26,090 nucleotides of DNA from a virus: positions 1 through 26,090 of the IMG/VR virus record IMGVR_UViG_3300009177_000104; one strand, written 5' to 3'. Both the position numbers and the translations under genes were made by a program. Below are positions 42 through 18,874 of the stretch, piece after piece (the first letter of the stretch is position 1; each line of letters opens with the position of its first letter). The notes under the pieces were generated by a model. That model did not search any database. It saw only the letters and a list, made by a program, of their open reading frames with translations, and was not told the DNA's origin.

Positions 42-271
42 TGAACGCTGACGATGACGAAAAACTGATTGTCCGGCCCCTGCCCAATCCTAACGATCCT
101 GTAGCCCAAAATATCCCCCTCAAGCTGGATATGACGCACGAGCCGGGTTTCGTCAAAATGACCTTTGACCCGCCCATCATGCGCATGCGCCTGCGCCCAT
201 CGGAAGCGCGCCAACTGGCCATTGGACTACTCAACCACGCCGAAAGCGCCGAGCACGCGAAAAACGAATGA
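41..271 (+). CDS. Small hypothetical phage protein (76 aa)
   Basis: The 76-residue protein has an acidic N-terminus, a central stretch that looks beta-rich (residues 26-52) and a C-terminal helix (RPSEARQLAIGLLNHAE). The helix resembles the end of many small phage proteins of unknown function, in which a strand ending in arginine leads into an S/T-x-x-A-x-x-L-A helix. No catalytic motif, membrane segment or Cys pair is present. It starts at the TAATG junction with the upstream gene and overlaps the next gene by ATGA, so it is probably co-translated with the glycosyltransferase-like gene. Function unknown. Confidence 0.65.
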   Translation: MNADDDEKLIVRPLPNPNDPVAQNIPLKLDMTHEPGFVKMTFDPPIMRMRLRPSEARQLAIGLLNHAESAEHAKNE

Positions 272-1683
272 TTGTCGCGATCCCCTTTTGCCCCGGCGAC
301 GTCGAGCAAGCCCATTCGCTAGTCGAGTTCATGGGCCAGTTGGGCGGGTGCCAGGAATTCAACGCGCTGCTCGTTGCGGATGCCGCGGTCGACTGGGGCA
401 AATCCGTCGACATGCTCACCATCGCCAATCGCACGTTCCGAAGCGCGTCCCTGATCTGCACCGATTTTCCCGTTGAGGGTTGGCCGGCGGGCGCCAACGC
501 GCTCTGGCTCAAAGCCGCCTCTCACGCCAAAGCCAACCAGGTGCCATTTCTATGGCTCGAGCCGGACGCGATCCCCGTCAAACGCGGCTGGCTGGTCGCC
601 ATTCACAAAATGCGTGGCACCGGCTACTTCGGCCACGTCTACGACTGCCACCAATCGGGGTTGCCAAGACAACTGCTCTCAGGCGTCGCCGTTTACCCGC
701 CCGACGCCATTGACCTGATCGGCCCCTGCATCGACGCCAACCCCAGCAAAGCTTGGGACGTGTCCAGCGCGGGCGTGGTTTTGCGCCATGCCACCCCCAC
801 TAAGTTGATTCAGCATTTTTGGGGTGAAGTCGGGTTGCCGCCCACGTTCGTGGAAGTCAAAGGGCCCAATTCGCCGCGCAACGCCATGAGCCTGGCCGAC
901 CTGGATCCAGAGACCATGCTGTTTCACCGCTGCAAGGACGGCACCCTGCAACAGATTTTGCGCCGGTCCCTCGGGATGTCGGCCCCGGGTCATTTCGTCG
1001 TTGTCCTGCCCTTCTGCAATTTGGACGTCGAACTGATGATCAAGAGCTTGGACTGGATGGAAGCCATGGGGATGCCCAAAACTCACGATTGCATGTTGTC
1101 CTTCGACCGGACAACCCTGCGCGACTCGGTCCGGCGCGTCGCGGCCCGGGCGGCCAACGTGTTTTGCTCGGTTGCGCAGACTTCCTACAGCGTTCCACAT
1201 GGAACACGATTTCCGCAAACTGCTGCCTGGCAACATGCGGCCAAAACCATGCACGCCCTTTATCGTAATTGGCTCTGGATGGAAGCCGACGCTGTTGCGT
1301 TAAAGCCCCATTGGCTTTCGGCGCTGCAAAATGTCTACGACAATTCTCATAAACCATTCGCCGGCCCCGTCGTGGAAGGTGCCGGTCACTGTAACGGCAC
1401 GGCCATCTATCCGGCCAACACCCCCGACCTGTTGCCCCGCACCATGTCGCACACCCAGAACGCCTGGGACGTTGAGGCAAAGGACGAAATGGCCGGCTGG
1501 GTGAAGGACATTGGCCACATTTTCTTTTGCGCCTGGGGCGAGGTGCATGGCCGCTTAAATCCCCTCGAGGGCGAATCGCCGTCCTTCCCGCCGGGCAGCC
1601 CGCTGCTCAACCAAATCCCAAAAACGGCCGTGGTTTTCCACCGCTGCAAAGACGGCTCACTTATCGACCGACTCAGCGCATGA
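268..1683 (+). CDS. Tandem-duplicated glycosyltransferase-like protein (two GT-A-like halves)
   Basis: The 471-residue protein contains the same roughly 225-residue domain twice (about 3-229 and 243-467). Matching landmarks are IPFCPGDVE / LPFCNLDVE at each start, LWLEPDAIP (95-103) / LWMEADAVA (336-344), GVAVYPPD (139-146) / GTAIYPAN (377-384), AWDV (162-165 / 399-402) and FHRCKDGTL (219-227) / FHRCKDGSL (457-465). The E-x-D-A element after a hydrophobic strand stands where GT-A glycosyltransferases carry the metal-binding DxD, so a nucleotide-sugar transferase role is likely but inferred. No signal peptide or membrane segment is present, so it should act in the cytoplasm. It overlaps both neighbours by ATGA. 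The two halves have clearly diverged, which suggests an old duplication and perhaps two acceptor specificities, or one catalytic and one binding half. Confidence 0.7.
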   Translation: MIVAIPFCPGDVEQAHSLVEFMGQLGGCQEFNALLVADAAVDWGKSVDMLTIANRTFRSASLICTDFPVEGWPAGANALWLKAASHAKANQVPFLWLEPDAIPVKRGWLVAIHKMRGTGYFGHVYDCHQSGLPRQLLSGVAVYPPDAIDLIGPCIDANPSKAWDVSSAGVVLRHATPTKLIQHFWGEVGLPPTFVEVKGPNSPRNAMSLADLDPETMLFHRCKDGTLQQILRRSLGMSAPGHFVVVLPFCNLDVELMIKSLDWMEAMGMPKTHDCMLSFDRTTLRDSVRRVAARAANVFCSVAQTSYSVPHGTRFPQTAAWQHAAKTMHALYRNWLWMEADAVALKPHWLSALQNVYDNSHKPFAGPVVEGAGHCNGTAIYPANTPDLLPRTMSHTQNAWDVEAKDEMAGWVKDIGHIFFCAWGEVHGRLNPLEGESPSFPPGSPLLNQIPKTAVVFHRCKDGSLIDRLSA

Positions 1684-2198
1684 AACCATGGGAAGAGAGT
1701 AAGCAGTGGTCGGACAGGTTTATGCGTCAAATAAAGCAGACGCTGGGTGAGCACCTGATTGAAATCGGCAACATTGAGCAGGACCGTAAAGAGGCTGGCG
1801 ATCTTACCGTTCTTAAATCCAATCTCATTCGGATAGGATGTCGGATCCGAAAGCATCATCACCTTAAAAAGTACCACGACCAATTTACGATTCGCCAAAG
1901 TCGCGCCAGCGGCGTGCAAACCGAGATGGACAAAATCAGGGCTGGTTGGGGCAATTGGTTCTTTTACGGCTTCGAGGATTCAACCAGCCAGAGAGTGATC
2001 CACTGGTTCATTGCTGATTTGAACGTGTTCCGAGAGCACCTTCTCGTTAATCCGCAGTTGCTCGAAAATCGCGGTGGAATTCCGGACGGGTGCGGAACAA
2101 CCTTCTTTTCATTCTACCGATCCGATTTCCCCATAACTTTATTCAAGGCTTGGGGTGACAAATACGTCCCACCACCCCCCGTCCCGTCTTTCAAATGA
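1680..2198 (+). CDS. Hypothetical protein, possible nuclease-like fold (172 aa)
   Basis: The frame is open further upstream, but ATG 1680 is chosen because it forms the usual ATGA overlap with the previous stop. The protein starts MKPWEESKQWSDRF and has a central D-L-T-V-L, then R-I-x-C-R-I-R-K-H, then Y-H-D-Q-F-T-I-R, a G-x-Q-T-E-M-D-K-I element and an aromatic WGNWFFYGFED. This alternation of acidic residues with basic strands resembles phage proteins I recall only as conserved and uncharacterised. A PDDEXK-type nuclease fold is possible but unproven. It is followed by an HNH endonuclease gene, and both are visibly AT-richer than their neighbours, so the pair may have entered together. Confidence 0.7.
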   Translation: MKPWEESKQWSDRFMRQIKQTLGEHLIEIGNIEQDRKEAGDLTVLKSNLIRIGCRIRKHHHLKKYHDQFTIRQSRASGVQTEMDKIRAGWGNWFFYGFEDSTSQRVIHWFIADLNVFREHLLVNPQLLENRGGIPDGCGTTFFSFYRSDFPITLFKAWGDKYVPPPPVPSFK

Positions 2199-2851
2199 CC
2201 ACTGAAACCGCACTTCAAAAAAAACGGCGGTTGAATTTGGAAGCGGTGAGACGCTATCGAAAGAGAACAGTGCTGTACTGGCGTAAAAATCCTGCGGTTC
2301 GTAAAGCGGCAGCGCGTAGGCATTACCTAAAACACAAGGACAGGCTGAAGCCAATTCGTAAAGCGTGGATGTTGAAGAACAAATCTAAGTGGACAGAATA
2401 TTACTCGAAATGGTGCAAAGAGAATGCCGTTCGATGCATTGGTTACTCGCGCAACTGGATGAAGAGGAATCCAGAGCGGGCACGGCAGGTTTGGCAGCGG
2501 TGGAATAAAGCTCATCCCGAAAAGCGAAAACAGGTGGGGGCAGCGTATCGAACAAGGCACCCAGAAACCGCCGTAAGGAACAACACGATCAGGCGGCTGA
2601 GAGTCGGGGACTTCGATCGTTACCAGCCATTGATCGATTCGATGATTCGAGAGGTTTCTAAACTTCCATTTGCCGTCTGCACTTATTGCCAGAAGAAGAT
2701 CGATGGAATGTTCCACATCGATCACATTGTTCCCGTCTCGAGAGGCGGTAAACATGTGCGTGAGAATTTATGTGTGGCGTGCAAACGCTGCAATTTGTCG
2801 AAGGGCCCAAAACTATTAACCGAATGGAAGGGTGGAATTTATGCAGGTTGA
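2195..2851 (+). CDS. HNH endonuclease with basic N-terminal repeat region
   Basis: The C-terminal third is an HNH nuclease. A zinc-type CTYC (162-165) leads to HIDH (174-177), which holds the catalytic His and metal ligands. It continues with VPVSRGGKHVRENL (N191), CVACKRC (193-199) and N200-LSKG. The N-terminal 130 residues are very basic and carry loose repeats of an R/W-x-Y/W plus N-P/H-P-E-K pattern. These are seen in many free-standing phage HNH enzymes and probably bind DNA. Such proteins act as homing endonucleases or, in some phages, help terminase cut concatemers. Here it sits far from the terminase inside a sugar-enzyme cassette, so mobile homing behaviour is the more likely reading. 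It overlaps the upstream gene by ATGA and the downstream gene by 11 bases. Confidence 0.9.
   Translation: MTTETALQKKRRLNLEAVRRYRKRTVLYWRKNPAVRKAAARRHYLKHKDRLKPIRKAWMLKNKSKWTEYYSKWCKENAVRCIGYSRNWMKRNPERARQVWQRWNKAHPEKRKQVGAAYRTRHPETAVRNNTIRRLRVGDFDRYQPLIDSMIREVSKLPFAVCTYCQKKIDGMFHIDHIVPVSRGGKHVRENLCVACKRCNLSKGPKLLTEWKGGIYAG
2826..2832 (+). promoter_or_regulatory. Shine-Dalgarno sequence for the 2841 gene
   Basis: GGAAGGG lies 8 bases before ATG 2841, inside the end of the HNH gene. It is one of the few convincing Shine-Dalgarno sites here. It favours ATG 2841 over the in-frame GTG at 2832, which overlaps the site itself. Confidence 0.6.
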
Positions 2852-3635
2852 TATTTTAATTGTGAGTTGCGCCCGCCATTTCCCGTGGCTGAAATATTCC
2901 CTGCGTTCCATTGTGCGCTTCGCCACCGGCTTCCGCCAGGTGAAGGTGCTGGTGCCATCGGAAGACCTCTCGGCCATGTCGCCACTGCTCACCGAGTTCT
3001 CGGGCGAGCACGGCATTCCCATCCGGGTTGTTCCTTACGAGGACTGGCCGGACAAGGGGTTTTTGCGCCACGAAGACGTGATCATGCGCTCGGACACGTT
3101 CAGCGACGCGGATTTTTTCTGTCACATCGACAGTGATTGCCTGTTTTCCGAGCCGGTCACGCCGGCGGATTATTTCGTCGACGGCAAGCCGGTGCTCATG
3201 CACGCGACGTATCACTGGCTCGTCACCACCCAGCAAGCCAACCTGGGCATGTGGCAGGTCGCCGTCGAGAAAGCCATTGGCGGACGCAGCGAGAATGAGT
3301 TCATGCGCCGGCATCCCGCGGTCCACAGCCGCCTCACCTACTTTGCCGCCCGCCAGTGCATTGAGGGGCACCACCACAAGCCGGCGAGTGATTACATTCG
3401 CGAGTGTGAGAACGCTTTCCCCCAAACCTTCTGCGAGTTCAACACGCTCGGGCAGGTCGCGTGGGACCACCTGCATGACCGCTACCACTGGCACAACTGC
3501 GAGACGCAAGGATGGATCGAGCCTCACAAAATCGTTCAGTTTTGGTCACATGCCTCGCCAGAGGAACCGCAGGAACCGGTGTTCCGCGGCAAACCCTATC
3601 GCTGCACCCCAGCGGAATTGCTGAAATTGCTGTGA
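2841..3635 (+). CDS. DUF6492-like glycosyltransferase (GT-A fold)
   Basis: The 264-residue protein starts with a strand (VDILIVSC) and a W-L-K-Y-S-L-R-S-I helix, as in GT-A enzymes. KVLVPSED follows, then FCHIDSDCLF, where D97-S-D99 is a good candidate DxD that binds metal and nucleotide sugar. A histidine-rich region around residues 175-185 (EGHHHKP) and EFNTLG precede a C-terminal WIEPHKIVQFWSH segment. The order matches DUF6492-type glycosyltransferases as I remember them. No signal or membrane segment is seen. The start is set by GGAAGGG 8 bases upstream. Donor and acceptor are unknown. Its place in the cassette suggests action on the same glycan as the other transferases. Confidence 0.75.
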   Translation: MQVDILIVSCARHFPWLKYSLRSIVRFATGFRQVKVLVPSEDLSAMSPLLTEFSGEHGIPIRVVPYEDWPDKGFLRHEDVIMRSDTFSDADFFCHIDSDCLFSEPVTPADYFVDGKPVLMHATYHWLVTTQQANLGMWQVAVEKAIGGRSENEFMRRHPAVHSRLTYFAARQCIEGHHHKPASDYIRECENAFPQTFCEFNTLGQVAWDHLHDRYHWHNCETQGWIEPHKIVQFWSHASPEEPQEPVFRGKPYRCTPAELLKLL

Positions 3636-3636
3636 T

Positions 3637-3822
3637 ATGGTCTATCAACTTTACCACGACGGCCAAGATTTCTGCGTTTGGGCAGAGCCAGAGGCTGGCG
3701 ACAAATACATAGGGATATGTGTGGGCGTCGGCAAAACACAAGAGGCGGCCGTAGCTGACGCCAAAAAAACACTCAGCGAAACAGAGAAGCAACTCGATCA
3801 ACTGGCGCTGCCGACGGATTGA
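3637..3822 (+). CDS. Small hypothetical protein, HicB-like pattern (61 aa)
   Basis: Two or three short strands (YQLYHDGQDFCVWAE, KYIGICVGVG) are followed by a helix starting T-Q-E-A-A-V-A-D-A. This strand-strand-GxT-helix layout recalls the partial RNase H fold of HicB-like antitoxins. No HicA toxin lies beside it, so a toxin-antitoxin role is not supported. The gene begins one base after the previous stop. Function unknown. Confidence 0.6.
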   Translation: MVYQLYHDGQDFCVWAEPEAGDKYIGICVGVGKTQEAAVADAKKTLSETEKQLDQLALPTD

Positions 3823-3826
3823 AACT

Positions 3827-4033
3827 GTGAGCGACACGCAGTCTTACAATCAAGCTCTCGGCCCACATAGGCCGTTGCCGGGAATTCTTGCCGCCATGTT
3901 GGACGCTGTCCCGAAACAATGCGAAGTCGAAGCTATTAGTATCAATGGGCAGACTGGTCGCATCATTATCGAGGTTTACCACGACGGTGCCAAAATGAAT
4001 TACGAATTCCAAACGCCAGAAACAAAGCCGTGA
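3827..4033 (+). CDS. Small hypothetical protein (68 aa)
   Basis: A GTG start at 3827 follows the previous stop by 4 bases, and the end overlaps the next GTG by 4 bases (GTGA). The protein has a helix (LPGILAAMLDAVP) followed by beta-rich sequence (EAISINGQTGRIIIEVYHDG). No motif points to a function. The non-ATG start makes its reality slightly less sure, but the frame fills the space exactly. Confidence 0.55.
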   Translation: MSDTQSYNQALGPHRPLPGILAAMLDAVPKQCEVEAISINGQTGRIIIEVYHDGAKMNYEFQTPETKP

Positions 4034-4326
4034 TCGAACACCGCTTCATAGACCTGTTCGGGGTCGAGCAGGTTGACTACGTCTTCAGCAAGAACGATCC
4101 CAAGGGCTACGCCCACACCCCGGGCACCGGGCCCAAGGGTGAGACGTGCAAAACCTGCGAGCATCGGGTGAAGCTGCGGGCCAACAGCAAGCGGTTTTAC
4201 AAATGCGGACTAAACCGCGACAACTGGTCCAACTCGATCACCTCTGACATTGTGCTCAAAATGCCCGCCTGCAACCTCTGGGAACCGTCCCTGTCAAAAA
4301 CACCACGAAACGGAAACTTGCGATGA
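4030..4326 (+). CDS. Small Cys-containing (zinc-ribbon-like) phage protein
   Basis: The protein starts at GTG 4030 inside the GTGA overlap. After an N-terminal segment (DLFGVEQVDYVF) comes GTGPKGETCKTCEHRV with a C-x2-C pair, then FYKCGL and MPACNLWEP, giving four cysteines that could bind one zinc. This TGPxGETCxxC ... KCGL ... C-x-x-W-E-P pattern is familiar from small uncharacterised phage proteins. It overlaps the methyltransferase gene at 4323 by ATGA. A nucleic-acid or protein-binding role is possible but not shown. Confidence 0.7.
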   Translation: MIEHRFIDLFGVEQVDYVFSKNDPKGYAHTPGTGPKGETCKTCEHRVKLRANSKRFYKCGLNRDNWSNSITSDIVLKMPACNLWEPSLSKTPRNGNLR

Positions 4327-4979
4327 CACCCTTTCAACTCTTGCTGGATAAGATCCACGAAGGCAAAAACCCCTACACCGGATTCCCTGCCGCCGAGTGG
4401 GCCGGCACCTGGTATGGGGACCACGGCGCCATGCGCGAGATTTTCGCCAAAGCCATTAACGCCACCAACCCCGCTTTCATTATCGAGGTTGGCAGCTTCG
4501 TGGGTGAGAGCGCCATTTTCATGGCCCAACTGCTCAAAAAGCAAAACCGGGATTGCGTCATTCTCTGCGTCGATACCTGGTACGCCGGATTCGACCACTG
4601 GAAGGGGGCACGGGAAAAGATCCGCATGCACTTCGGGCGCCCCGACTTCTATTACAAGTTCGTGGCCAACATCATTGCCAACAATTGCCAGGACGTGATT
4701 ATCCCCTTCGCCATGGACTCGATTGGGGCAGCCCGCGTGATCAAGTGGCTTGGATTGGTGCCAAATCTGATTTACGTCGACGCCAGCCATGAGCAGGGTG
4801 ACGTGTTCCGCGACTACGAAGCTTACTGGGATCTGCTTGGGCCCGGCGGTGGAATGTTGGTGGACGATTTGACTAACTATTTTCCCGGCGTCGTGGCTGA
4901 CTGGAACCGATTCATGGGAACTTACGCCGTTGAACCTGTTTTGGTCGAAGGCGAAAAAGCTCTGGCGATTAAAAAATGA
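4323..4979 (+). CDS. Class I SAM-dependent methyltransferase (first of a tandem pair)
   Basis: The 218-residue protein carries Rossmann-fold methyltransferase landmarks: motif I EVGSFVGESAI (55-65), an acidic end to the second strand in CVDTWY (D84), LIYVDASHE (149-157) and GGGMLVDD (175-182). The D-A-S-H and V-D-D elements are typical of the Methyltransf_24/cephalosporin-hydroxylase-like group, which often O-methylates sugars or small molecules. No membrane segment is present. The next gene, overlapping by ATGA, belongs to the same group. Together with nearby glycosyltransferases, methylation of a sugar or of a glycosylated residue is the most likely role (inference). Nothing suggests DNA methylation: no DPPY-type motif or target-recognition domain is visible. 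Confidence 0.85.
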   Translation: MTPFQLLLDKIHEGKNPYTGFPAAEWAGTWYGDHGAMREIFAKAINATNPAFIIEVGSFVGESAIFMAQLLKKQNRDCVILCVDTWYAGFDHWKGAREKIRMHFGRPDFYYKFVANIIANNCQDVIIPFAMDSIGAARVIKWLGLVPNLIYVDASHEQGDVFRDYEAYWDLLGPGGGMLVDDLTNYFPGVVADWNRFMGTYAVEPVLVEGEKALAIKK

Positions 4980-5590
4980 ACTCACTTCCCACCTATGCCG
5001 AGGGCGTGCTGCAAGCCGTCTTTTCGGACGCCAACCTGCCCAACATTCAGCAGCACGAATGGGAAATGCGGACCTTCCTGCAGTTGGTTGTCGACGAATT
5101 GAAGCCGGCGCGCACCGTCGAGCTTGGCACCTACCGCGGGTTCACCGGCGCGCTGCTCTCGCAAGTCACATCGACTCAAACCGTTTCCATCGACGTGCAG
5201 GATTACGGGACCGCCGATGCTGGCAAATTCGGTAACTGCCTGACTTACCTGCTCGACGACGCCACCACGCCGGAATGCGTGACGCATGTCATGGCGATGT
5301 TGGGTGGGCCCATTGACCTGCTCTTCATCGACGACGGCCATTACTACGAGCAGATCGTGAAGGAATTTGAACTGTGGGAACCGCTCGTGCGTCACGGCGG
5401 CTGGATCGTGTTCCACGATATCAACCCGCTGGCCAACATTGGGCCCCACGGCGTTCAGCCTGACTGCGTGCAGGTCACCCGCTTCTGGAATGAACTGAAG
5501 GGCACCAAACAGGAAATTATTGCCACCGCCGAGCACGCTGCGTTTAAGGGTGTGATCCCGCACGGTGGCTTGGGAATTTTGCGGGTATGA
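4976..5590 (+). CDS. Class I SAM-dependent methyltransferase (second of a tandem pair)
   Basis: The 204-residue protein shows VELGTYRGFTGALL (48-61) as motif I, SIDVQDYG (71-78) for the ribose-binding acid, LLFIDDGHYYE (115-125) and WIVFHDIN (143-150). This set (E-L-G-T, I-D-D-G-H-x-Y, F-H-D) is the classic Methyltransf_24 pattern found in enzymes that methylate sugars and secondary metabolites. D119, H122 and H147 are candidate metal or catalytic residues. It overlaps both neighbours by ATGA. Its likeness to the preceding methyltransferase suggests an old tandem duplication, but the two differ enough to act on different positions or substrates. Confidence 0.87.
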   Translation: MNSLPTYAEGVLQAVFSDANLPNIQQHEWEMRTFLQLVVDELKPARTVELGTYRGFTGALLSQVTSTQTVSIDVQDYGTADAGKFGNCLTYLLDDATTPECVTHVMAMLGGPIDLLFIDDGHYYEQIVKEFELWEPLVRHGGWIVFHDINPLANIGPHGVQPDCVQVTRFWNELKGTKQEIIATAEHAAFKGVIPHGGLGILRV

Positions 5591-5883
5591 TTCTAATCGG
5601 GTATCATTTCAAACTGGTGGTGACTGAGTGCATTCCTTACATGCCAAAGGAAGAGTCCGATGAAAAGTTCATTTGCGGCTGCAGTGGACGGGTGAAAGCT
5701 GTCCTGTTGTGTAACGGTTACGGAAAGCCATGGCGCAAGTGCGGTTCTTTTGACATGGACGCTTGCGATTTCGCCGTGTTCAGTCAGGCGCTTTATGATG
5801 CCGGACAGGCTGGCCGTTTCGAGATCGTGTTTGACGATCAGAAGTTCTACGATTTCATCGAGGAAAACCCGAGCATTTTATGA
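5587..5883 (+). CDS. Hypothetical Cys-containing protein (98 aa)
   Basis: The protein sits between the methyltransferase and the radical SAM gene with 4-base overlaps on both sides. It contains FICGCSG, VLLCNG, WRKCGS and MDACDF, which give enough cysteines for a metal site but not in a standard zinc-ribbon spacing. An acidic C-terminus (FDDQKFYDFIEENP) follows. No family is recognised. Its position raises the possibility that it partners or is a substrate of the radical SAM enzyme, but no repeat or leader/core pattern supports this. Confidence 0.6.
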   Translation: MILIGYHFKLVVTECIPYMPKEESDEKFICGCSGRVKAVLLCNGYGKPWRKCGSFDMDACDFAVFSQALYDAGQAGRFEIVFDDQKFYDFIEENPSIL

Positions 5884-6671
5884 TCGAAACTGACTACGGC
5901 TGTGAAATTAACGCCGTGCGCCACTGCACGAACGCCTGCGTGGCATGCAATCACGCCTCGACCAAGTTCACCGAGAAATATTTCATGGACCCGGCGGTGC
6001 TCAAGCGTGACCTCGACGTCATGAAGGGCCACCTGCGCACAAAACTGCTCTTCGTTCAGGGCGGTGAGCCGCTGCTTCACCCCAAGGTCACCGAACTTCT
6101 ATCGCTGTGCTACGACAGCGGCATTGCCAAACAGTGCGGGGTGCTCACCAACGGCAAGTTGCTCAAGCAAATGAAGGACGACTTTTGGGAAATGCTTACC
6201 ACGCGCAAAATGGAACTGCGCATGTCGTGCTATCCTGACCTCGACCCGTCCATTGTCCCGTGGGTGCAGGAAAAGGCTCAAGCGTGGGGATTCTTCGTGC
6301 GCCCGCAGGAAATCAACGGGTTCAAACCGGTGTTCCGCGCTGTGCCGGACGGTCGGACTTACCACGGTTGCCCGTGGAATCGCTGCCTGACCATTCACGA
6401 GGGGTTTTTCTACCTGTGCCCGCTCTCGACGTTCTGGCCCGAGCAGTTCATGCGGCGAGCCGAGAAGTGGAAGGACATTTCGGCGACGGTGGACGGCCTC
6501 GAGATTGCCGGAATGACCGACGAGCGGTTGAAGGTGTTCTTGGGGCGGCGTCACCCGCTGGAATCGTGCAAGATTTGTTCGGGGGCCACCGGCGACTCAA
6601 TTGCTTGGCACCAGAATAAAAACCAGGACGAGTGGGAAGCTGAGGCGGGCGTGGCTGCTGCATTGGCATGA
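5880..6671 (+). CDS. Radical SAM protein with SPASM-like C-terminal cysteines
   Basis: The protein has C16-T-N-A-C20-V-A-C23, the C-x3-C-x2-C motif that binds the radical SAM [4Fe-4S] cluster, followed by QGGEPLLHP (60-68), which is the G-G-E-P SAM-binding element, and GVLTNG (87-92). The C-terminal half holds further cysteines: C164, C169, C180 in FFYLCPLSTF, and C230/C233 in SCKIC. These fit an auxiliary SPASM/twitch-type cluster. Similar enzymes occur in capsule and phage loci beside glycosyltransferases, but their substrates are mostly unknown. Candidates are a nucleotide sugar, a glycan or a peptide. No precursor peptide gene is obvious nearby. It overlaps both neighbours by ATGA, so it should be made together with the methyltransferases and transferases. 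Confidence 0.88.
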   Translation: MIETDYGCEINAVRHCTNACVACNHASTKFTEKYFMDPAVLKRDLDVMKGHLRTKLLFVQGGEPLLHPKVTELLSLCYDSGIAKQCGVLTNGKLLKQMKDDFWEMLTTRKMELRMSCYPDLDPSIVPWVQEKAQAWGFFVRPQEINGFKPVFRAVPDGRTYHGCPWNRCLTIHEGFFYLCPLSTFWPEQFMRRAEKWKDISATVDGLEIAGMTDERLKVFLGRRHPLESCKICSGATGDSIAWHQNKNQDEWEAEAGVAAALA

Positions 6672-7402
6672 GCATGCCCATTTGGCTCTTCTGCATTTGT
6701 CGGGACGAGGCACCGCTCATGCCCTATTTCCTGCGCCATTACTCGGCGTGGTGCGATAAAATGATTTTCTTCGACGACCAGTCTACAGACGGCACCCGCG
6801 AGCTTATCCGTTCGTGCCCCAAAGCTGAACTGCGGGACTGGCCGGGCACCACGGGCTTGGATGATCAGGCGTTTCTGGACTTCGCCCACGAGGCGTGGAA
6901 AGAGGCGCGCTGCAACGCTGAGTGGGTGATCTGGGTCGACGCCGACGAATTTCTCTACCATGAGAACATGCTCGAACTGTTGGCCACCTACCTGCGCGAC
7001 GGGGTTGAGGTGCCGCAGATCCGCGGTTACACCATGTTCTCACGCGAGTTCCCCAACACCACGGGCCAGATTTACGAGCAGGTCAAAGCCGGGGTGGTCG
7101 ATGACGTGTGGAACAAGCCGGCCATATTCCGGGTGCACATTCACTGGACCATGGGTCGGCACGGGCCGGACTTCACCAAGTTCAGTCCGCGCTCGAGCCC
7201 GGGGTGTGATATCAAGCTCTTGCACTACCGTGGCCTCGGTGCCGAATACGTGCGCTGGCGGCACGCCCGCAATTGGGCCAGGGTGCCCGACCACTGCCGG
7301 CGCGCCCATCTGGGGACAAACACAGCGCCGGATTATGTCGGACACCACTCAGTTGACTGGTTTTTGGAAGTAATGAGTCGCAACCTGCCCCACGTAATAT
7401 GA
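6668..7402 (+). CDS. Glycosyltransferase family 2-type protein (paralogue A)
   Basis: The 244-residue protein has an N-terminal strand and R-D-E-A-P-L-M-P-Y-F-L-R-H-Y helix, then FFDDQSTDGT (34-43), the D-D-x-S-x-D-G-T signature of family-2-like transferases, and IWVDADEFLY (88-97), the metal-binding D-x-D-E-F. DIKLLHYRG comes near the end. This layout matches the Glyco_tranf_2_4 group. It is clearly related to the protein at 8567, with which it shares RHYS, STDGTR, LRDWP, DEFLY, the WT/WVRG-H region and KLLHYR. No membrane anchor is present, so it is probably cytoplasmic. Donor sugar and acceptor unknown. Confidence 0.85.
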   Translation: MSMPIWLFCICRDEAPLMPYFLRHYSAWCDKMIFFDDQSTDGTRELIRSCPKAELRDWPGTTGLDDQAFLDFAHEAWKEARCNAEWVIWVDADEFLYHENMLELLATYLRDGVEVPQIRGYTMFSREFPNTTGQIYEQVKAGVVDDVWNKPAIFRVHIHWTMGRHGPDFTKFSPRSSPGCDIKLLHYRGLGAEYVRWRHARNWARVPDHCRRAHLGTNTAPDYVGHHSVDWFLEVMSRNLPHVI

Positions 7403-7887
7403 TCTACGTCAACAAATCCCCCACCGCCGACACGCGCACTTGCGACTTTGCCAACATCAACAAAGAGGAACTGCTCAACTCAAGTCGCGAGCACATTGGC
7501 GACGTGGTGAAGGCGATCGCATTTTTTCAGACCCAACTTACCGAAGCCGCCGGGCGGCACGATTGGGACAAGCTCACGGCGATTGACTGGTTTCATCACG
7601 ACTTCGTGACAGGATTCAAGCAAACCGGCTGGTGGGACAATCACCGCAGGATTCATCGGCATCACCTCAACATAGCGGACGGCGTGCCCCCGGACGTCAA
7701 CCTGCTGGACGTGCTCGAGCACATTGCCGATTGCGTTATGGCCGGCATGGCTCGTAGCGGTAGCGTTTACGAACTAAAACTGTCCGACGAATTGTTGCAG
7801 CGAGCGTTCCAAAACACGGTGGAACTGTTGAAGGAACAAGTGGCGATAGTCCCTGGTTCCGTTTACACCGAAATGGCCAAATCATGA
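7399..7887 (+). CDS. DUF5662-like protein (possible metal-dependent enzyme)
   Basis: The 162-residue, mainly helical protein contains REHIGDVVKAIAFFQ (30-44), GRHDWDKL (52-59), an NHRRIHRHHLN cluster (81-91) and VLEHIADCVMAGMARSG (105-121). The conserved H-I, H-D-x-x-K, H-H-x-N and E-H-x-x-D residues resemble the DUF5662 family found in phages and bacteria, whose activity I do not know. Their spacing suggests a helical metal site, broadly like HD-domain hydrolases. It lies between two sugar transferases with ATGA overlaps, though small metabolic genes of this type are common phage passengers and need not join the pathway. Confidence 0.6.
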   Translation: MIYVNKSPTADTRTCDFANINKEELLNSSREHIGDVVKAIAFFQTQLTEAAGRHDWDKLTAIDWFHHDFVTGFKQTGWWDNHRRIHRHHLNIADGVPPDVNLLDVLEHIADCVMAGMARSGSVYELKLSDELLQRAFQNTVELLKEQVAIVPGSVYTEMAKS

Positions 7888-8570
7888 ATCCTGTCCTCGT
7901 TTCCACCTGGGGCCCCACCCCAAAAAAATACCTGCTGGCGTTCTTCGATACCTGCAAGCGCAACGGTCTCGAGCCGCAAAACTTCGACCACACCGACTGG
8001 GAAGGCGGCGGGGACTGGCGGCAGATCCCCTGGTACAAGAAGAGCGAGGGGCAGGCGCGTTTCGTGCGCGAGAACAAGGACAAGTACAGCCACTTCGTTT
8101 TCACCGATTCGTACGACGTCGTCTTTGGCACCGGCATGGACGAGATCATGCGCAAGTTCGAGCGGCTCAATTCCCCCATTGTGTGCGCTGCCGAGTGCTA
8201 CTGCTGGCCGGACATCAACCAGGCTGGCCTTTACCCGCCGTGCCCCGACCGCTGCCGCTATCTCAACGCTGGCATGTGGATTGCCACCTCGGAAGCCGCT
8301 GTCCCCTTCACCGAGGAACTAGCCGCCACCGCCGCCAAGCGCGAGAAGGACGACCAACAGATCTTGGTGGATATGTTCCTGTCCAAGCGCCATCCCATCG
8401 CTCTGGATACAACCTGCTCAATTTGCTTTTGCTGCAATATCAACTCGCTGGACTTCCTCGACATGAGCGGACCGCGCCCGCGCACCACCGACACCGGCCA
8501 GGAACCGTGCCTCTATCACGGCAACGGCGCGAGCGACCTGCGGGGGATTTGCGCGAAGATTGCGCCATGA
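7884..8570 (+). CDS. PLOD-type glycosyltransferase (collagen-lysine GT-like)
   Basis: The 228-residue protein matches the N-terminal glycosyltransferase domain of procollagen lysyl hydroxylases and their viral relatives. Landmarks in order are FTDSYDVVF (73-81) with the metal-binding D-x-x-D, AAECYCWP (102-109), YPPCP (117-121), RYLNAGMWI (125-133), DDQQI (156-160) and LYHGNG (210-215). In the known family, Asp and His residues at these points hold Mn2+ and UDP-sugar, and the enzymes add glucose or galactose to hydroxylysine. No hydroxylase domain is fused or seen nearby, and no collagen-like Gly-X-Y protein is in the window, so the acceptor is probably different. It lies between two paralogous family-2 transferases. 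Family assignment is strong; substrate is open. Confidence 0.85.
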   Translation: MNPVLVSTWGPTPKKYLLAFFDTCKRNGLEPQNFDHTDWEGGGDWRQIPWYKKSEGQARFVRENKDKYSHFVFTDSYDVVFGTGMDEIMRKFERLNSPIVCAAECYCWPDINQAGLYPPCPDRCRYLNAGMWIATSEAAVPFTEELAATAAKREKDDQQILVDMFLSKRHPIALDTTCSICFCCNINSLDFLDMSGPRPRTTDTGQEPCLYHGNGASDLRGICAKIAP

Positions 8571-9298
8571 GAATCATAGTCTTTGCCATCACCTACAACT
8601 GCGCGGACGTGCTGCCCTTCTTCCTGCGGCACTACAGCCAGTTCGCCGACGAAATTTCCGTGTGGGACGATAACTCGACCGACGGCACCCGGGCCATGCT
8701 GCAATCTCACCCACGGGTCATGCTGCGGGACTGGCCGCACCGCACCGGCATTGACGAGGATTTGTTCCTGGCCCACTGGCAGGAATGGTATCCCAAGGCC
8801 CGCGGTAATTTTGACTGGGTCATGATCGTGGACCCCGACGAGTTTCTTTACGCCGTCAACATGCGGGACATGCTCGATTTCCAAAAGGGCCAGAAGGTGC
8901 AGGTGATACGCACCGAGGGTTTCAACATGGCCGGGGACGGGTTGCCTAAGGACGATGGTCGCCAGATTTGGGAAATTAACCCCATGGGGGTGCCGGCGCC
9001 GGTTTACTCAAAGCCGGTGGTGTTCCAGCCCGACATTCAGATCAACTGGGTGCGCGGCAAGCACGCTCTCCAGAACTGCGCGCCGGTGGTGCGTTACCTG
9101 CCCTGGATCAAGCTCTTGCATTACCGCTATATGGGGGCGGCTTACACGGCCGCAAAAAACGCCAAGAACTACGCCCGGTGCGGGTTGCAGTCGGGGGACA
9201 AGGGGGCCGCGTGGTCCTGCGCGCCAGGTTACACCGGCGAGCACTCGGCACCGTGGGCACAGGATATAATCAACAAGTCTTACAACGTGCTGGTATGA
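8567..9298 (+). CDS. Glycosyltransferase family 2-type protein (paralogue B)
   Basis: The frame is open upstream, but ATG 8567 (ATGA overlap) gives a proper start: RIIVFAITYNCADVLPFFLRH is the usual first strand and helix. VWDDNSTDGT (32-41) and MIVDPDEFLY (86-95) supply the donor-binding and metal-binding motifs. IKLLHYRYMG occurs toward the C-terminus. The 243-residue protein is a paralogue of the 6668 protein. The pair also shares DNA words such as ctgcgggactggccg and atcaagctcttgca. The insert between LLHYR and the C-terminus differs in sequence, so acceptor choice may differ. Likely a cytoplasmic sugar transferase. Confidence 0.85.
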   Translation: MRIIVFAITYNCADVLPFFLRHYSQFADEISVWDDNSTDGTRAMLQSHPRVMLRDWPHRTGIDEDLFLAHWQEWYPKARGNFDWVMIVDPDEFLYAVNMRDMLDFQKGQKVQVIRTEGFNMAGDGLPKDDGRQIWEINPMGVPAPVYSKPVVFQPDIQINWVRGKHALQNCAPVVRYLPWIKLLHYRYMGAAYTAAKNAKNYARCGLQSGDKGAAWSCAPGYTGEHSAPWAQDIINKSYNVLV

Positions 9299-9483
9299 AC
9301 TGCGTTAAATGCGGGCGCGCTTACGACGCTTTACCGTGGTATATCGTCGCCTACCGAAATGAGATTTTCCATTTTTGCTCTCGTCAGTGTTTAATTGAGC
9401 ACTTCGCCCCGGAACTGAAACAAGCCGTGGTGGTGAAACAATGGATACCAACACCGGAAGACGAGGAACGGATGCATCAATGA
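9295..9483 (+). CDS. Small zinc-ribbon-like protein (62 aa)
   Basis: ATG 9295 lies in an ATGA overlap with the transferase stop. The protein starts MNCVKCGRAYD and continues through a beta-rich WYIVAYRNEIFHFC to SRQCLIEHF, giving C-x2-C then C-x3-C about 25 residues later. This is the spacing of a single treble-clef or MYM/TRASH-like zinc finger. The tail is charged and short. Such proteins may bind nucleic acid or protein. No specific function is inferred. Confidence 0.65.
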   Translation: MNCVKCGRAYDALPWYIVAYRNEIFHFCSRQCLIEHFAPELKQAVVVKQWIPTPEDEERMHQ

Positions 9484-9674
9484 TCCTTTCTGACCTGAAA
9501 CTTTTACGCCAGCACCTCGATTGCGCCATCGAAATGGCCGAGCGAAACGTGATGAAGGATATGACGCCCGCCGAACTGCTGGCTTTCCGCCGCGACTTCA
9601 ACGGCGCCGACGCCAGAATTGGAAACTTCGTCATTTGGATGATTAAACCCGATCCGTTATGTGGCCCTGCATGA
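9480..9674 (+). CDS. Small hypothetical helical protein (64 aa)
   Basis: An earlier in-frame ATG (9441) exists, but 9480 makes the standard ATGA overlap with the preceding gene and is preferred. The protein is mostly helical (LSDLKLLRQHLDCAIEMAER and MTPAELLAFRRDFNGADARIG) and ends IKPDPLCGPA. No known domain is recognised. Confidence 0.6.
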   Translation: MILSDLKLLRQHLDCAIEMAERNVMKDMTPAELLAFRRDFNGADARIGNFVIWMIKPDPLCGPA

Positions 9675-9796
9675 CTTACAACGCCCATAAGTGGTGGGAC
9701 ACCCTTGAATCGTACTTTGCAAAACTCTTAGCTCGACAGTTGGCCAGGGGTAATCTGTTGGAACACCACTTTGAGGCGTTCCGTTCCGCCAAGTGA
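9671..9796 (+). CDS. Very small hypothetical protein (41 aa)
   Basis: ATG 9671 overlaps the previous stop as ATGA, and a TGA at 9794-9796 ends 4 bases before the next start. The peptide begins MTYNAHKWWDTLESYFAKLL and ends EAFRSAK, with an amphipathic helix in the middle and no signal or Cys pair. Its main support is that it exactly fills the space between two genes in a chain where nearly every junction is an ATGA overlap. Confidence 0.5.
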   Translation: MTYNAHKWWDTLESYFAKLLARQLARGNLLEHHFEAFRSAK

Positions 9797-9800
9797 ATGC

Positions 9801-10460
9801 ATGTTTCAAGTCACCCACCCTCGGCTCGTAGCAATCTCGAGCTTCCGCCCCCTGGACGCCTCGCCTGAGGTAGCCGCCAACCAACTTCGGGCCAAGCGTT
9901 CCTGGGACGAAGTCTTCGACAAAATCATCCTCTTCGGTTCCCACGACAAGCGGCTGGCCACGCCCAAAACCGAGTTCGTTGAGTGCGAAGAGTGGCCGCA
10001 CATTTCCCTGCTCGTCATGGTCGCCCGATGCCAAGCCGATCCCACCTGCATTCTCAACGCGGACATTGTCGTTTCAGACGCCCTGAAGCACATGCTCAAC
10101 TTAGGCTGGACCAAGGGGGCCATGGCTCTTACCAGCCGGCGCTATGAGTTTGATCCAGCCACCGAAAACTACGACGCCGCCAGGGTGGTGGATTGGGGCG
10201 CGGACTTCTTTGCCGCGCTGCCGCAGGCGTGGAATGAGGCTTACAAGGAAATCCCCACCGGCTTCCGCTTGGGCCATCAGCTGTGGGATAATTGGATGCT
10301 GGGGTTCTTCTACCACCGGTGTTTCCGAAATTTCTTCGACATCACCGCAATGCGCCCGATCTTCCACCCCAAGCACGGTGACCGGAAAATGCCGCACGTC
10401 GTCGTTGTGCCGCCTGACTGCTTTTACGCCCAAATGGGTTTCCCGCCGGCGTTGACGTAG
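9801..10460 (+). CDS. GT-A-like glycosyltransferase candidate (219 aa)
   Basis: ATG 9801 is preferred to the in-frame ATG at 9771, because 9801 directly follows the small gene ending at 9796 and starts a good first strand (RLVAISSFRP). KIILFGSHD (41-49) and FVECEEWP follow, then CILNADIVV (83-91), where N-A-D is placed like a DxD. The HQLWDNWMLGFFYHR segment recalls the D-x-W-M region of uncharacterised phage transferases. No membrane segment is present. A sugar transferase role is inferred from fold-like order and neighbours. It ends the accessory cassette directly before the portal gene. Confidence 0.55.
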   Translation: MFQVTHPRLVAISSFRPLDASPEVAANQLRAKRSWDEVFDKIILFGSHDKRLATPKTEFVECEEWPHISLLVMVARCQADPTCILNADIVVSDALKHMLNLGWTKGAMALTSRRYEFDPATENYDAARVVDWGADFFAALPQAWNEAYKEIPTGFRLGHQLWDNWMLGFFYHRCFRNFFDITAMRPIFHPKHGDRKMPHVVVVPPDCFYAQMGFPPALT

Positions 10461-10480
10461 CAAAGCCGCCGGAATAGCGT
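10452..10480 (+). promoter_or_regulatory. Candidate sigma-70-like promoter before the portal gene
   Basis: TTGACG (10452-10457) and TAGCGT (10475-10480) are separated by 17 bases and lie just before the portal start at 10491. The -35 matches 5 of 6 positions. The -10 matches only 3 of 6, but keeps the important first T-A and last T. If real, transcription would start very near the ATG, which argues for a nearly leaderless mRNA or for chance. Confidence 0.25.
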
Positions 10481-10490
10481 CCGCGCTGGC

Positions 10491-12827
10491 ATGCAATTTT
10501 CTACCGCGTCAGTGGTCGAGCAGCTGGTTTGGCAAATGCGTCTGGCTGATTACCCCCGCGCCCGCAACCGCGCCCGCATAAACGACCTCTTCAACGGCGC
10601 CCCGCCTTACACCGCCGAGGAAGAGCAGCAGAACAACATTGCGATCAACGTCAACAGCCTCGAGGGCACGAAGCTGGCCCATGACGCCCGCAGCCAGTTC
10701 GCCAACGCCTTCCAAAAACCCGGTGCTTTCTTCACCGCCCGCACTGATTACGGCCCATCTCACCGCCGCCAGAAATACGGGTCCATTGTGACCAAAGAGA
10801 TCAACCGCATTATGAAGCGGTGCCCGTACTACTTTGAAACGCAGCGGTCGAAGTTCGCCCAATTGGTTCTTCACGGCATTGGGCCAAGCGCATGGGAAAC
10901 GCGGCAGGGTTGGTGCCCCGATTGCGTGGGTATCGAGGACGTCATGATCCCGTCCAACACCCTGCTGACGATGAAGAATTTGCCGTTCTACGCCATCTTC
11001 CGCTCTTACACTGGCGAGGAACTTTACCGGCTGACCCACGGGCCCAACGTGGACAAGGCGTGGCAAATGGACAACGTCAACGCCTGCCTCAAGTGGGTCG
11101 ACGAAGAGACGGCCAAACTTTCAGGGACAACGTGGCCGGAAGTGTGGTCACCGGAAAAAATGGAAGAGCGGATAAAGCAGGATTCTGGTCTCTACGCTTC
11201 CGACGCCGTGCCCACCATCGACACCTGGGATTTCTATTTTTGGAATGATTCTAAAAAGGTGAGCGGCTGGAACCGGCGGATCGTGCTCGACCAATACGGG
11301 ACGCCGGGCGTTGGCGGGGTGGTGCCGGACAAGAACAAAATCGGCGGGTCCAACCAGTGGCTCTACAACCCGGGGGATCGCAAATACGCCAGCAAGCTTT
11401 CCGAGATCGTTTCCTTCCAATTTGCCGACCTGTCCGCCGTCGCCCCCTTCCGCTATCACAGCGTGCGTTCCTTGGGGTTCCTGCTCTACGCCGTGTGCCA
11501 CCTGCAAAACCGGCTGCGGTGCAAATTCAACGAGGCTGTGTTCGAGGCGCTCATGATGTATATGCGGGTCAAGTCGATGGACGACGCCGAGCGGGCGCTC
11601 AAAATTAACCTGATCAGCCGCGGGATCATTGACGAGACGGTGCAGTTTCTTGCCCCCGCCGAACGCTGGCAGGTCAACGCCCAGTTGGCGGAATTGGGGC
11701 TGGCCCAGAATCAGCAGGTAATCAACCAGAACAGTTCTTCCTATGTCCAAAGCCAGGGCAAAACCAACCCGGACGTCGAAAAGACCGCCTTCCAAATTCA
11801 GGCTGAACTCAACGCCACCACCGCGCTCATTTCGGCGGGATTCAACCAGGCTTACCAATATCAGGAATATGAGTATTACGAGATCTTCCGCCGGTTCTGC
11901 ATCAAGAATTCCCGGGACATGGATGTTCGCACGTTTCGTCTCAATTGCCTGAAACGCGGGGTGCCCGAGAAACTGTTGAGTGCCGAATGTTGGGAACTCG
12001 AGCCCGAGCGCGTGATGGGTTCTGGCAACAAGACCATGGAACAAGCCATTGCCCAGCAACTCATGGAATGGCGGCAGTTCTACGATCCCCAAAGCCAGCG
12101 CGAGATCCTGCGTGTGTCCACCCTGGCGGTGACCGATGACCCGGGCCTGACCGAAACGCTGGTTCCGGAAGAAGCCAACCCGCTCACCACCTCGCGGCAG
12201 AAGGCTATGGTGGCCATGGGCTCGCTCATGCTGGGGTTGCCGGTCAAATTCGGGATTAACGATAACCGGGTGGAAGTGGCCGAGACGCTGCTGGCCGAAA
12301 TGGCCATGATGATCCAGCGCATTGAGCAGAACGGCAACATGGCCACCCCCGAACAACTGATCGGCTTGCAGACGGTCGGCCAGACGATTGGCGAGCAAAT
12401 CCAAATTCTGGCCCAGGACAAAGGGCAACAGCAGCGGGTGCGCGCCTACTCAGATGACTTGGGCAAGCTTATGAACCTGCTGAAGGGCTTTGCCCAGCGC
12501 CTGGCGCAGCAAGCCAAGGAAGCACAAGCCAACGGCAACGGCCAGGGCGGATTGGATCCGAAGGACGCGGCAAAGATTAAGGCGATCCTCATTCAAGCCG
12601 ACGTCAAAGCCAAAAATGCGGCACAGTCACACGCGCAGCGCACCGCCCAGCGGCAGGTGCAGTGGGAAATGGATGAGAAGCGCAAACAGGAACAACACCA
12701 GCTTGACCTGCAGAAAGAGCGGCGGACGCATCAGGCTGATTTGGCGGCCAAAGACATCGAAACGGCGGCCAGCATCCGGCGCGACCGCATTGCCGCCTCT
12801 CATAAGCCGCCCAAGCAAAAGCCTTGA
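10491..12827 (+). CDS. Portal protein
   Basis: The 778-residue protein has the size and layout of short-tailed-phage portal proteins. The N-terminal region (ARINDLFNGAPPYTAEEE, then NNIAINVNSLEGTK) is the kind of wing/clip entry seen in such portals. A long mixed middle contains Tyr/Trp-rich stretches. The last 130 residues or so form a Gln/Lys/Glu-rich coiled coil (QLDLQKERRTHQADLAAKD and similar), common in these proteins. Portals form the 12-fold ring at one capsid vertex through which DNA is packed. The gene precedes a scaffold-like gene and the capsid candidate, the normal order. A W-C-P-D-C motif (141-145) is unusual and could bind metal or form a disulfide. The ring-forming role is known for the family, not shown here. 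Confidence 0.8.
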   Translation: MQFSTASVVEQLVWQMRLADYPRARNRARINDLFNGAPPYTAEEEQQNNIAINVNSLEGTKLAHDARSQFANAFQKPGAFFTARTDYGPSHRRQKYGSIVTKEINRIMKRCPYYFETQRSKFAQLVLHGIGPSAWETRQGWCPDCVGIEDVMIPSNTLLTMKNLPFYAIFRSYTGEELYRLTHGPNVDKAWQMDNVNACLKWVDEETAKLSGTTWPEVWSPEKMEERIKQDSGLYASDAVPTIDTWDFYFWNDSKKVSGWNRRIVLDQYGTPGVGGVVPDKNKIGGSNQWLYNPGDRKYASKLSEIVSFQFADLSAVAPFRYHSVRSLGFLLYAVCHLQNRLRCKFNEAVFEALMMYMRVKSMDDAERALKINLISRGIIDETVQFLAPAERWQVNAQLAELGLAQNQQVINQNSSSYVQSQGKTNPDVEKTAFQIQAELNATTALISAGFNQAYQYQEYEYYEIFRRFCIKNSRDMDVRTFRLNCLKRGVPEKLLSAECWELEPERVMGSGNKTMEQAIAQQLMEWRQFYDPQSQREILRVSTLAVTDDPGLTETLVPEEANPLTTSRQKAMVAMGSLMLGLPVKFGINDNRVEVAETLLAEMAMMIQRIEQNGNMATPEQLIGLQTVGQTIGEQIQILAQDKGQQQRVRAYSDDLGKLMNLLKGFAQRLAQQAKEAQANGNGQGGLDPKDAAKIKAILIQADVKAKNAAQSHAQRTAQRQVQWEMDEKRKQEQHQLDLQKERRTHQADLAAKDIETAASIRRDRIAASHKPPKQKP

Positions 12828-13140: not shown

Positions 13141-14475
13141 ATGCCAGCCGCCGCTGCCCCACCGCCGTCCACCGCTACCCCCGCACCCGCCAAAACCGCC
13201 GCCGCTGCCGCCCCTTCCGCGCCGGCACCGGTCACCAACCCGTTCGACCAATCTTTTGCCGACCTCGAGCGGTTCACCCATGAGGGCGAACTTCCTGGCC
13301 GGGAACCGGAAAAACCCGCCGCGCCGGCAAAACCTGCCAAACCGGCGGCAGCAGCAAAACCGGCCGCAAAACCCGCGCCCGCTGCCAAGCCTGCGGCCAA
13401 ACCAGCACCGGCGCCACCGGCGGCCAAGCTGGATGGATCGGAAGGACTGGCCGATCCGGAAGCCGAAGAACCCACCACCCCAGAGGGTGAAGGCACGCCG
13501 GCGCCGGAAGATACGACCCCGCCGGCCAAGCCGGACGGCAAGCGGCCCAGCCCGTGGACGCTGTTGGACCAATTCAAGGCCCGGGCGATTCGCGCTGAAA
13601 AGGAACTGCAGGAAGCGCGTTCGGCCCAGAAAAGCGGCGAGTTGCCCAAGGAACACATCGAACGGTTCAGCACCCTGGAAGCGCGCAACAAGGAATTGGA
13701 AGAAGAGATCCGCCATGTCAATTACGCCAAGAGCAAAGACTTCGAAGAGACGTATAAAAAGCCCTACGAACACGCATGGCGCCGGGCGCTCTCTGAATTG
13801 AGTGAGTTGACGGTGACCAACGCCGATGGGTCCACCCGCCAGGCTACCAGCGCGGACATGCTCAGGCTGGCGAACATGCCCCTTGGCGAAGCATGGGACC
13901 AAGCCGAGGAATGGTTCGGCAAAGCTGCCTCGGCGGTCATGAACCACCGGGACAAGCTCAAGGATCTGTCCGACAAACAGAGCACCGCTCTGGAAGACGC
14001 CCGTAAAAACGGCGGGGACCGCGAGAAGCAACTCACCCTCGAGCAGCAAGCCAGGGAACTGACCAACCGCAAAAACATGGCCAAGCTCTGGGAAGACGCC
14101 AACCGCGAGATCACAGAAAAGTACGAGTACCTGCGACCCATCGAAGGTGAGACCGAGCGCAATGAGAAGCTCGAGCGCGCCATCAAATTCATCGACGAAA
14201 CCTTCCACCTCAACGCCAACCAAGCCAAAACGGAAGAGGAACGCCAGCAGATCATCCGGCGCCACGCCGCCCTGCGCAGCCGGGCCATTGGCTTCACCGT
14301 GCTCAATTACGAGAACAAGGCGCTTCGGGCGGAAATTGAGACGCTGAAGAAATCGCTCGAGGAATTTCAGGGCAGTGAACCGACCAATGGCGAGCCGCGC
14401 CGGACAGAAAATGGCGAGGGTTTTGCGGACACCATGGAAGGCGCCCTGGCTGGACTGGCAAAACTGGCCTCTTGA
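13141..14475 (+). CDS. Scaffold-like (capsid assembly) protein
   Basis: The 444-residue protein has three parts: an Ala/Pro-rich start (1-35), a Lys-Pro-Ala repeat linker (about 62-96) with an acidic continuation (98-135), and a long charged coiled coil (about 140-420) with KELQEARSAQ, RNKELEEEIRHV and LEDARKNGGDREKQ. High helix content, low hydrophobicity and placement directly before the capsid candidate are the usual marks of internal scaffolding proteins, which guide capsid assembly and are then removed. No serine-protease motif is evident, so no built-in maturation protease is claimed. The Ala-Pro-Lys N-terminus is unusually long for a scaffold and might reach another head part. No Shine-Dalgarno precedes it; the ATG follows the previous stop by 4 bases. 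Confidence 0.65.
   Translation: MPAAAAPPPSTATPAPAKTAAAAAPSAPAPVTNPFDQSFADLERFTHEGELPGREPEKPAAPAKPAKPAAAAKPAAKPAPAAKPAAKPAPAPPAAKLDGSEGLADPEAEEPTTPEGEGTPAPEDTTPPAKPDGKRPSPWTLLDQFKARAIRAEKELQEARSAQKSGELPKEHIERFSTLEARNKELEEEIRHVNYAKSKDFEETYKKPYEHAWRRALSELSELTVTNADGSTRQATSADMLRLANMPLGEAWDQAEEWFGKAASAVMNHRDKLKDLSDKQSTALEDARKNGGDREKQLTLEQQARELTNRKNMAKLWEDANREITEKYEYLRPIEGETERNEKLERAIKFIDETFHLNANQAKTEEERQQIIRRHAALRSRAIGFTVLNYENKALRAEIETLKKSLEEFQGSEPTNGEPRRTENGEGFADTMEGALAGLAKLAS
13324..13428 (+). repeat. Lys-Pro-Ala coding repeat in the scaffold-like gene
   Basis: Short in-frame units encoding A-K-P-A and A-K-P-A-P are repeated about eight times at residues 62-96. The underlying codons vary (gcg/gcc/gca, aaa/aag), so the repeat is kept at protein level and is not a fresh DNA slippage product. 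It should form an extended, positively charged linker. Confidence 0.75.
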
Positions 14476-18871: not shown

Positions 18872-18874
18872 ACT

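Follow-up and report, generated by a model that had tools for sequence, protein, structure and literature searches.

A phage gene cassette of six glycosyltransferase-like genes, two methyltransferase genes and a radical SAM gene next to putative head genes, which may assemble a glycan on the virion

Viruses that build the glycans of their own virions are already known. According to Freeman et al. 2023, as cited in PMC12363180, the mycobacteriophages Che8, Corndog and Myrna use glycosyltransferases of their own to modify capsid and tail-tube proteins. In the chlorovirus PBCV-1 (A064R, A061L), mostly soluble viral glycosyltransferases build the N-glycan of the capsid, with one multi-domain glycosyltransferase and two virus O-methyltransferase activities (PMC9614988). 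Here we describe what is probably an unusually large, modular version, located at positions 268 to 10460 of the virus record IMGVR_UViG_3300009177_000104 (26,090 bases, analysed as a whole and called the window). The likeness to the mycobacteriophages lies in the phage-encoded glycosyltransferases. By contrast, the acceptor is putative here, and the cassette belongs to an unrelated, uncultured lineage and gathers six glycosyltransferase genes, a pair of methyltransferase genes and one for a radical SAM enzyme into a single operon-like set. With the chlorovirus it shares mostly soluble glycosyltransferases, a multi-domain glycosyltransferase and two methyltransferases, but PBCV-1 is a eukaryotic virus and no sequence relationship is claimed. 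Like bacterial serotype and capsule loci, the cassette has constant flanks and a centre in which glycosyltransferase, methyltransferase and tailoring genes are swapped; unlike them, it lies in a phage head block and has no membrane export genes. The initial annotation knew of phages with single transferases but of no described cassette with exactly this make-up, and we likewise found none in the cultured-phage records and openly licensed full-text papers that were searched.

The genes of the cassette lie head to tail on one strand, followed after a gap of 30 nt by the putative portal gene. The features of the cassette and of the adjoining region are:

268 to 1683, plus strand: GT268, bimodular GT-A glycosyltransferase, backbone gene (AlphaFold model, Foldseek, motifs)
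1680 to 2198, plus strand: small protein, its ATG at 1680 overlapping the GT268 stop by 4 nt; no homologue in close relatives outside G001
2195 to 2851, plus strand: HNH endonuclease (PF01844, 2.3e-13), absent from the cassettes of G003-G005
2841 to 3635, plus strand: GT2841, DUF6492-like putative glycosyltransferase, backbone gene (PF20102, DSD motif)
4323 to 4979, plus strand: Methyltransf_24 methyltransferase 1 (PF13578, 8.9e-13)
4976 to 5590, plus strand: Methyltransf_24 methyltransferase 2 (PF13578, 7.1e-14; RMNT_CmcI, 2.1e-7)
5880 to 6671, plus strand: radical SAM enzyme (PF04055); CxxxCxxC motif, and a Cys-rich C-terminus resembling an auxiliary-cluster region
6668 to 7402, plus strand: GT6668, Glyco_tranf_2_4 glycosyltransferase (PF13704, 2.3e-15)
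7884 to 8570, plus strand: GT7884, PLOD/LH3-type glycosyltransferase without hydroxylase domain (PF25342, DSYD motif)
8567 to 9298, plus strand: GT8567, second Glyco_tranf_2_4 glycosyltransferase (PF13704, 1.5e-16)
9295 to 9483, plus strand: small Cys-rich protein (CxxC...CSRxC), putative zinc finger, at the same spot in four related genomes (48-63% identity)
9801 to 10460, plus strand: GT9801, GT-A glycosyltransferase of no named family; final backbone gene, preceding the portal (AlphaFold, Foldseek, motif)
10491 to 12827, plus strand: putative portal, with which the head block begins (order and conservation only)
13141 to 14475, plus strand: putative scaffold (order; Pro/Ala-rich, charged; no confident match)
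14701 to 16056, plus strand: putative major capsid protein (order; 58-88% identity across relatives)
21555 to 23336, minus strand: terminase large subunit (phrog_2, 2.3e-6; 25-27% to actinophage terminases)

All nine enzyme genes named by the initial annotation (six glycosyltransferase-like, two Methyltransf_24, one radical SAM) are present as open reading frames, and their families or folds agree with it; this support is good for five of the glycosyltransferases and weak for GT2841. Curated Pfam cut-offs are passed by the radical SAM gene, by both Methyltransf_24 genes and by three of the six glycosyltransferase genes (6668, 7884 and 8567). The glycosyltransferase domains number seven, gene 268 being bimodular. 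Overlaps of 4 nt occur at 12 of the 18 junctions (13 if the small gene after GT268 begins at the ATG at 1680), so most genes are joined in this way; the initial annotation had described nearly all as linked by ATGA or GTGA overlaps. A scan for promoters and terminators returned sites no more numerous than in shuffled sequence. The interleaved small proteins had been described as unknown; most of these small ORFs are indeed not conserved, and neither is the gene at 2195, which encodes an HNH endonuclease and is probably a mobile passenger inside the cassette, but the Cys-rich gene at 9295 is conserved.

Neither GT268 nor GT9801 matches a Pfam, PHROG or NCBIfam family, and neither has a convincing sequence match in the PDB. 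The AlphaFold model of GT268 (pLDDT 93.8), built from an alignment of 36 window and viral sequences, was matched by Foldseek to the GT-A proteins LH3, LARGE1, chondroitin polymerase and COLGALT1 in the PDB (best E 5.6e-12). This agrees with the earlier call of a glycosyltransferase, though not of a single one, as the gene encodes a tandem of two such domains. The two halves share 27% identity (E 9e-18), each repeat bears an E-x-D motif, and L-W-L-E-P-D of the N-terminal repeat is invariant in the 36 sequences. GT268 was found at 67 viral loci, and a single glycosyltransferase domain is common in its distant relatives. For GT9801, found at 34 viral loci, the model (pLDDT 90.1, from 17 window and viral sequences) resembles the GT-A proteins WrtF fucosyltransferase, AvpGT and KfiA (best E 7.4e-6). 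A GT-A-like fold is also found in some sugar nucleotidyltransferases, and the reading of GT9801 as a glycosyltransferase therefore leans also on its invariant A87-D88, its size and its context. GT2841 scores below the curated cut-off of PF20102 (DUF6492; 5e-4, 19.6 bits versus 22.9), while its DSD is invariant, H-x-D-S-D is conserved and the gene occurs at most loci of the lineage. It is the least certain of the six and is treated as a putative glycosyltransferase.

The other three glycosyltransferases lie in the centre of the cassette. For GT6668, all eight members of set A6 match PF13704 and the DxD is invariant, and GT8567 is a paralogue of GT6668 (38%). GT7884 matches the PLOD glycosyltransferase domain PF25342 (4.8e-23, 82.1 bits versus a cut-off of 27) with a conserved DSYD metal motif, and its profile finds LH3 (1e-17) and the mimivirus protein R699 (6.8e-17) in the PDB. 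GT7884 is therefore a clear sequence relative of the LH3 glycosyltransferase domain and of R699 (of the mimivirus pair R699/L230), and GT268 has the same broad fold. GT7884 differs from the multifunctional PLOD/LH3 collagen enzymes in that its 228 amino acids comprise the glycosyltransferase domain alone, without the C-terminal lysyl hydroxylase. Collagen was considered and rejected as a general acceptor of GT7884, as GXY repeats occur in only one of the genomes checked (G004) and no collagen-like GXY repeat is present in the window, G001, G003 or G005. The repeat of G004 (L032, minus strand, about G004 position 10370-10500) adjoins homologues of tail genes.

The two Methyltransf_24 genes score 49.5 and 53 bits, against a curated Pfam cut-off of 26.3, and methyltransferase 1 is 71-75% conserved in G003-G005. 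The radical SAM gene matches PF04055 above the cut-off (1.5e-7). The nearest solved structure, PDB 7wzv, aligns over the full length (6.5e-22) and shares CxxxCxxC and four C-terminal cysteines (C164, C180, C230 and C233); the invariant cysteines are 16, 20, 23, 164, 169, 180, 230 and 233. A pattern scan first revealed the gene in four contigs, and tblastn on all loci added further relatives of 31-45% identity in the contigs behind L057, L059, L120, L127-L129, L131 and L136. A distant relative (22%) is encoded in the marine virus AG-345-D19 (L154, 5977-6771), where the adjoining ORFs by eye resemble carbamoyltransferase. Radical SAM enzymes, glycosyltransferases and methyltransferases also co-occur in natural-product clusters, so that the product, instead of a particle glycan, could be a glycosylated peptide or a small saccharide that is secreted. 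However, nothing in the cassette was recognisable as a precursor peptide, an exporter or a carrier protein, and its small ORFs are mostly unconserved; we regard such a product as highly improbable.

When searching viral metagenomes for conserved co-occurrence, as the initial annotation had suggested, all nine genes were found in identical order in five distinct viral genomes with 54-78% identity. These are the window together with G001, then G003, G004, G005 and 3300005546_000006 (L045/L114). G001 is the 55,421-base contig IMGVR_UViG_3300044709_000253, part of which matches the window at 99.98% over 16.7 kb. Between genomes, pN/pS is 0.17-0.53 for all nine genes, indicating purifying selection. 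The identical order and these ratios show that the cassette is more than a chance assembly. The full set of nine is also present in two contigs (L057/L142 and L059/L143), where the radical SAM gene has shifted to third place. L047 retains GT268, GT2841, one GT2_4 gene, GT7884, one methyltransferase and GT9801, and many other loci have GT268, GT2841, one or more methyltransferases and GT9801. The initial annotation had named scattered and unlinked genes in related genomes as a refutation, and the outcome was the opposite: wherever the retrieved relatives possess these genes, they are linked. G002 has no cassette genes; the four genes before its portal (16642-19191) comprise one of Methyltransf_24 type, one with weak resemblance to GT2 and two that are unassigned. 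The locus counts given here may include the same phage sampled repeatedly, as separate contigs.

No relative of GT268, the putative portal or the putative capsid was found among the 50,697 phage records searched. A scan of bacterial genomes with the capsid gave one match, L110 (61%), a contig in a Pedosphaera (Verrucomicrobiota) MAG. This is a weak hint at the host, and L110 may be a misbinned phage. GT268 and the radical SAM gene were not found in 195 Verrucomicrobiota genomes, in a scan run without a positive control.

More distant relatives retain a backbone of GT268, GT2841, a variable middle and GT9801, accompanied by head or packaging genes. Which genes fill the middle differs between relatives: radical SAM genes, methyltransferases of the FkbM and Methyltransf_24 types, a PLOD-type glycosyltransferase and GT2 genes replace one another there. 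For instance, FkbM methyltransferases occur in L046 and L048, a sulfotransferase in L074 and a GDP-mannose 4,6-dehydratase in L065, and other radical SAM genes lie in the cassette region of L058 and L085. This variable content is what a glycan locus would be expected to hold. The GT2, FkbM and Methyltransf_24 genes, the dehydratase and the sulfotransferase also resemble those of bacterial surface-polysaccharide loci, and serotype-converting phages alter the host surface. The enzymes could accordingly remodel the LPS core, the capsule or a lipid-linked glycan of the host during infection, for example as a block to superinfection. Against this, the cassette contains no flippase, polymerase, polyprenyl-phosphate glycosyltransferase or other membrane protein; Gtr families were unmatched, with neither a GtrA flippase, a GtrB polyprenyl glycosyltransferase nor a multi-pass Gtr protein. 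The cassette moreover sits in the head and packaging block and not in an early or moron position. Lipid-linked and LPS-core sugars, too, are made by cytoplasmic-face glycosyltransferases that themselves have no membrane segment, and the lack of membrane helices is therefore compatible with a target on the host surface. Taken together, we consider remodelling of the host surface unlikely.

The position next to head genes, also claimed by the initial annotation, rests on a family match for TerL and on gene order for the portal, scaffold and capsid. Neither the putative portal nor the putative capsid matches a family or a PDB entry, and no profile match was obtained to P22, N4 or T7 for the portal or to P22 or N4 for the capsid. 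GT268 lies upstream of the putative portal, on the same strand and within 9 kb, in 37 of the 40 loci that hold both; in six distant loci the end of GT268 and the start of the portal gene overlap by 4 nt. The distance matrices of the two genes are strongly correlated (Mantel r 0.93, 0 of 2000 permutations), and GT268 is co-inherited with the putative portal. Three positions are seen for the backbone: ahead of the putative portal, between it and the capsid, or flanked by scaffold and capsid. The order is terL, portal, GT2841, GT9801 in L132 and L135, and the capsid follows in L132; in L138 GT268, GT2841 and GT9801 stand between scaffold and capsid and not before the portal. The cassette therefore changes place yet stays in the packaging and head block. 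The terL gene is on the minus strand in the window, whereas in more distant relatives it shares the strand of the cassette and lies upstream of it. In the structural region of the window, the genes at 16433-16693, 19859-20095 and 20099-20878 start with a shared Cys module of about 35 amino acids (M-x-C-D-x-x-x-L-...-C-...-PPG-...-LLC), which is repeated within one of the structural-region genes and occurs again in L110.

The location also bears on a role in glycosylating hypermodified phage DNA as an escape from restriction. Viral glycosyltransferases that act on DNA are known, including some that add diverse glycans (cited in PMC12619734). Here, however, the locus lies with head genes and away from replication genes. 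No thymidylate or dCMP hydroxymethylase, TET/JBP or other base-modifying gene was found among the Pfam matches of G001 and G004, for which ORFs from a length of about 125 aa upwards were scanned. These ORFs gave primase/helicase, ERF, nucleases and similar proteins, and no base-modification enzyme among the Pfam matches or the 25 of 66 PHROG families listed. We therefore give DNA glycosylation very little credence.

We consider it reasonably probable that the cassette encodes soluble enzymes for glycan assembly, is probably expressed late, and equips a virion protein, probably one of the head, with a methyl-capped oligosaccharide. The initial annotation had left open whether virion proteins or the host surface receive the glycan; the head-block position, the co-inheritance with the portal and the absence of membrane-like segments favour the former, and the host surface is the weaker of the two. 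As none of the cassette proteins has a membrane-helix-like stretch, stepwise transfer of sugars in the cytoplasm is the simplest reading, and the head position and the coupling to the portal make a virion protein the likely acceptor. On the other hand, linkage to virion genes, all but TerL named by order, could reflect operon timing and not substrate, position is the sole basis for naming the portal and the capsid, and the window contains no gene for NDP-sugar synthesis.

Gene content, folds and families, linkage, gene order, selection and the lack of membrane-like segments are observations; late co-expression, the sugars, their order of addition, the methylated positions, the acceptor, the radical SAM reaction and the role are inferred, as follows. 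The phage-encoded module would work in the host cytoplasm, probably late in infection, where soluble GT-A enzymes would in turn use NDP-sugars derived mainly from the host. GT268, with two active sites, GT2841 and GT9801 would make a core common to the lineage, and GT6668, GT7884 and GT8567 would add the variable part. The two methyltransferases may cap or block sugar hydroxyls by O-methylation, while the radical SAM enzyme may oxidise, epimerise or deoxygenate one sugar or modify an acceptor residue. The acceptor would be a virion protein, most likely a head protein, since the head is encoded in the gene block that also holds the cassette, and the product a particle coat that alters adsorption, stability or recognition. 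The tail-region protein at 23381-25828 has a linker of Ser/Thr-Pro and then Glu-Pro repeats and a leucine-rich C-terminal part; this linker is a possible O-glycan acceptor region.

More tentatively, and with somewhat less than even confidence, we propose that this is a phage 'glycotype' locus, head-linked and capsule-like, with three constant glycosyltransferase genes and a swapped centre, by which related phages would be coated with different methylated, radical-SAM-tailored glycans, as bacteria change serotype. If the virion reading is true, biochemistry would gain two unnamed glycosyltransferase families (GT268 and GT9801), a stand-alone PLOD-type glycosyltransferase and a sugar-linked radical SAM enzyme. 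Phage particles could then exchange modules to vary a complex surface glycan, with the assembly genes left in place, and glycosylation of the particle would rank as a core trait throughout a phage lineage rather than as an occasional extra.
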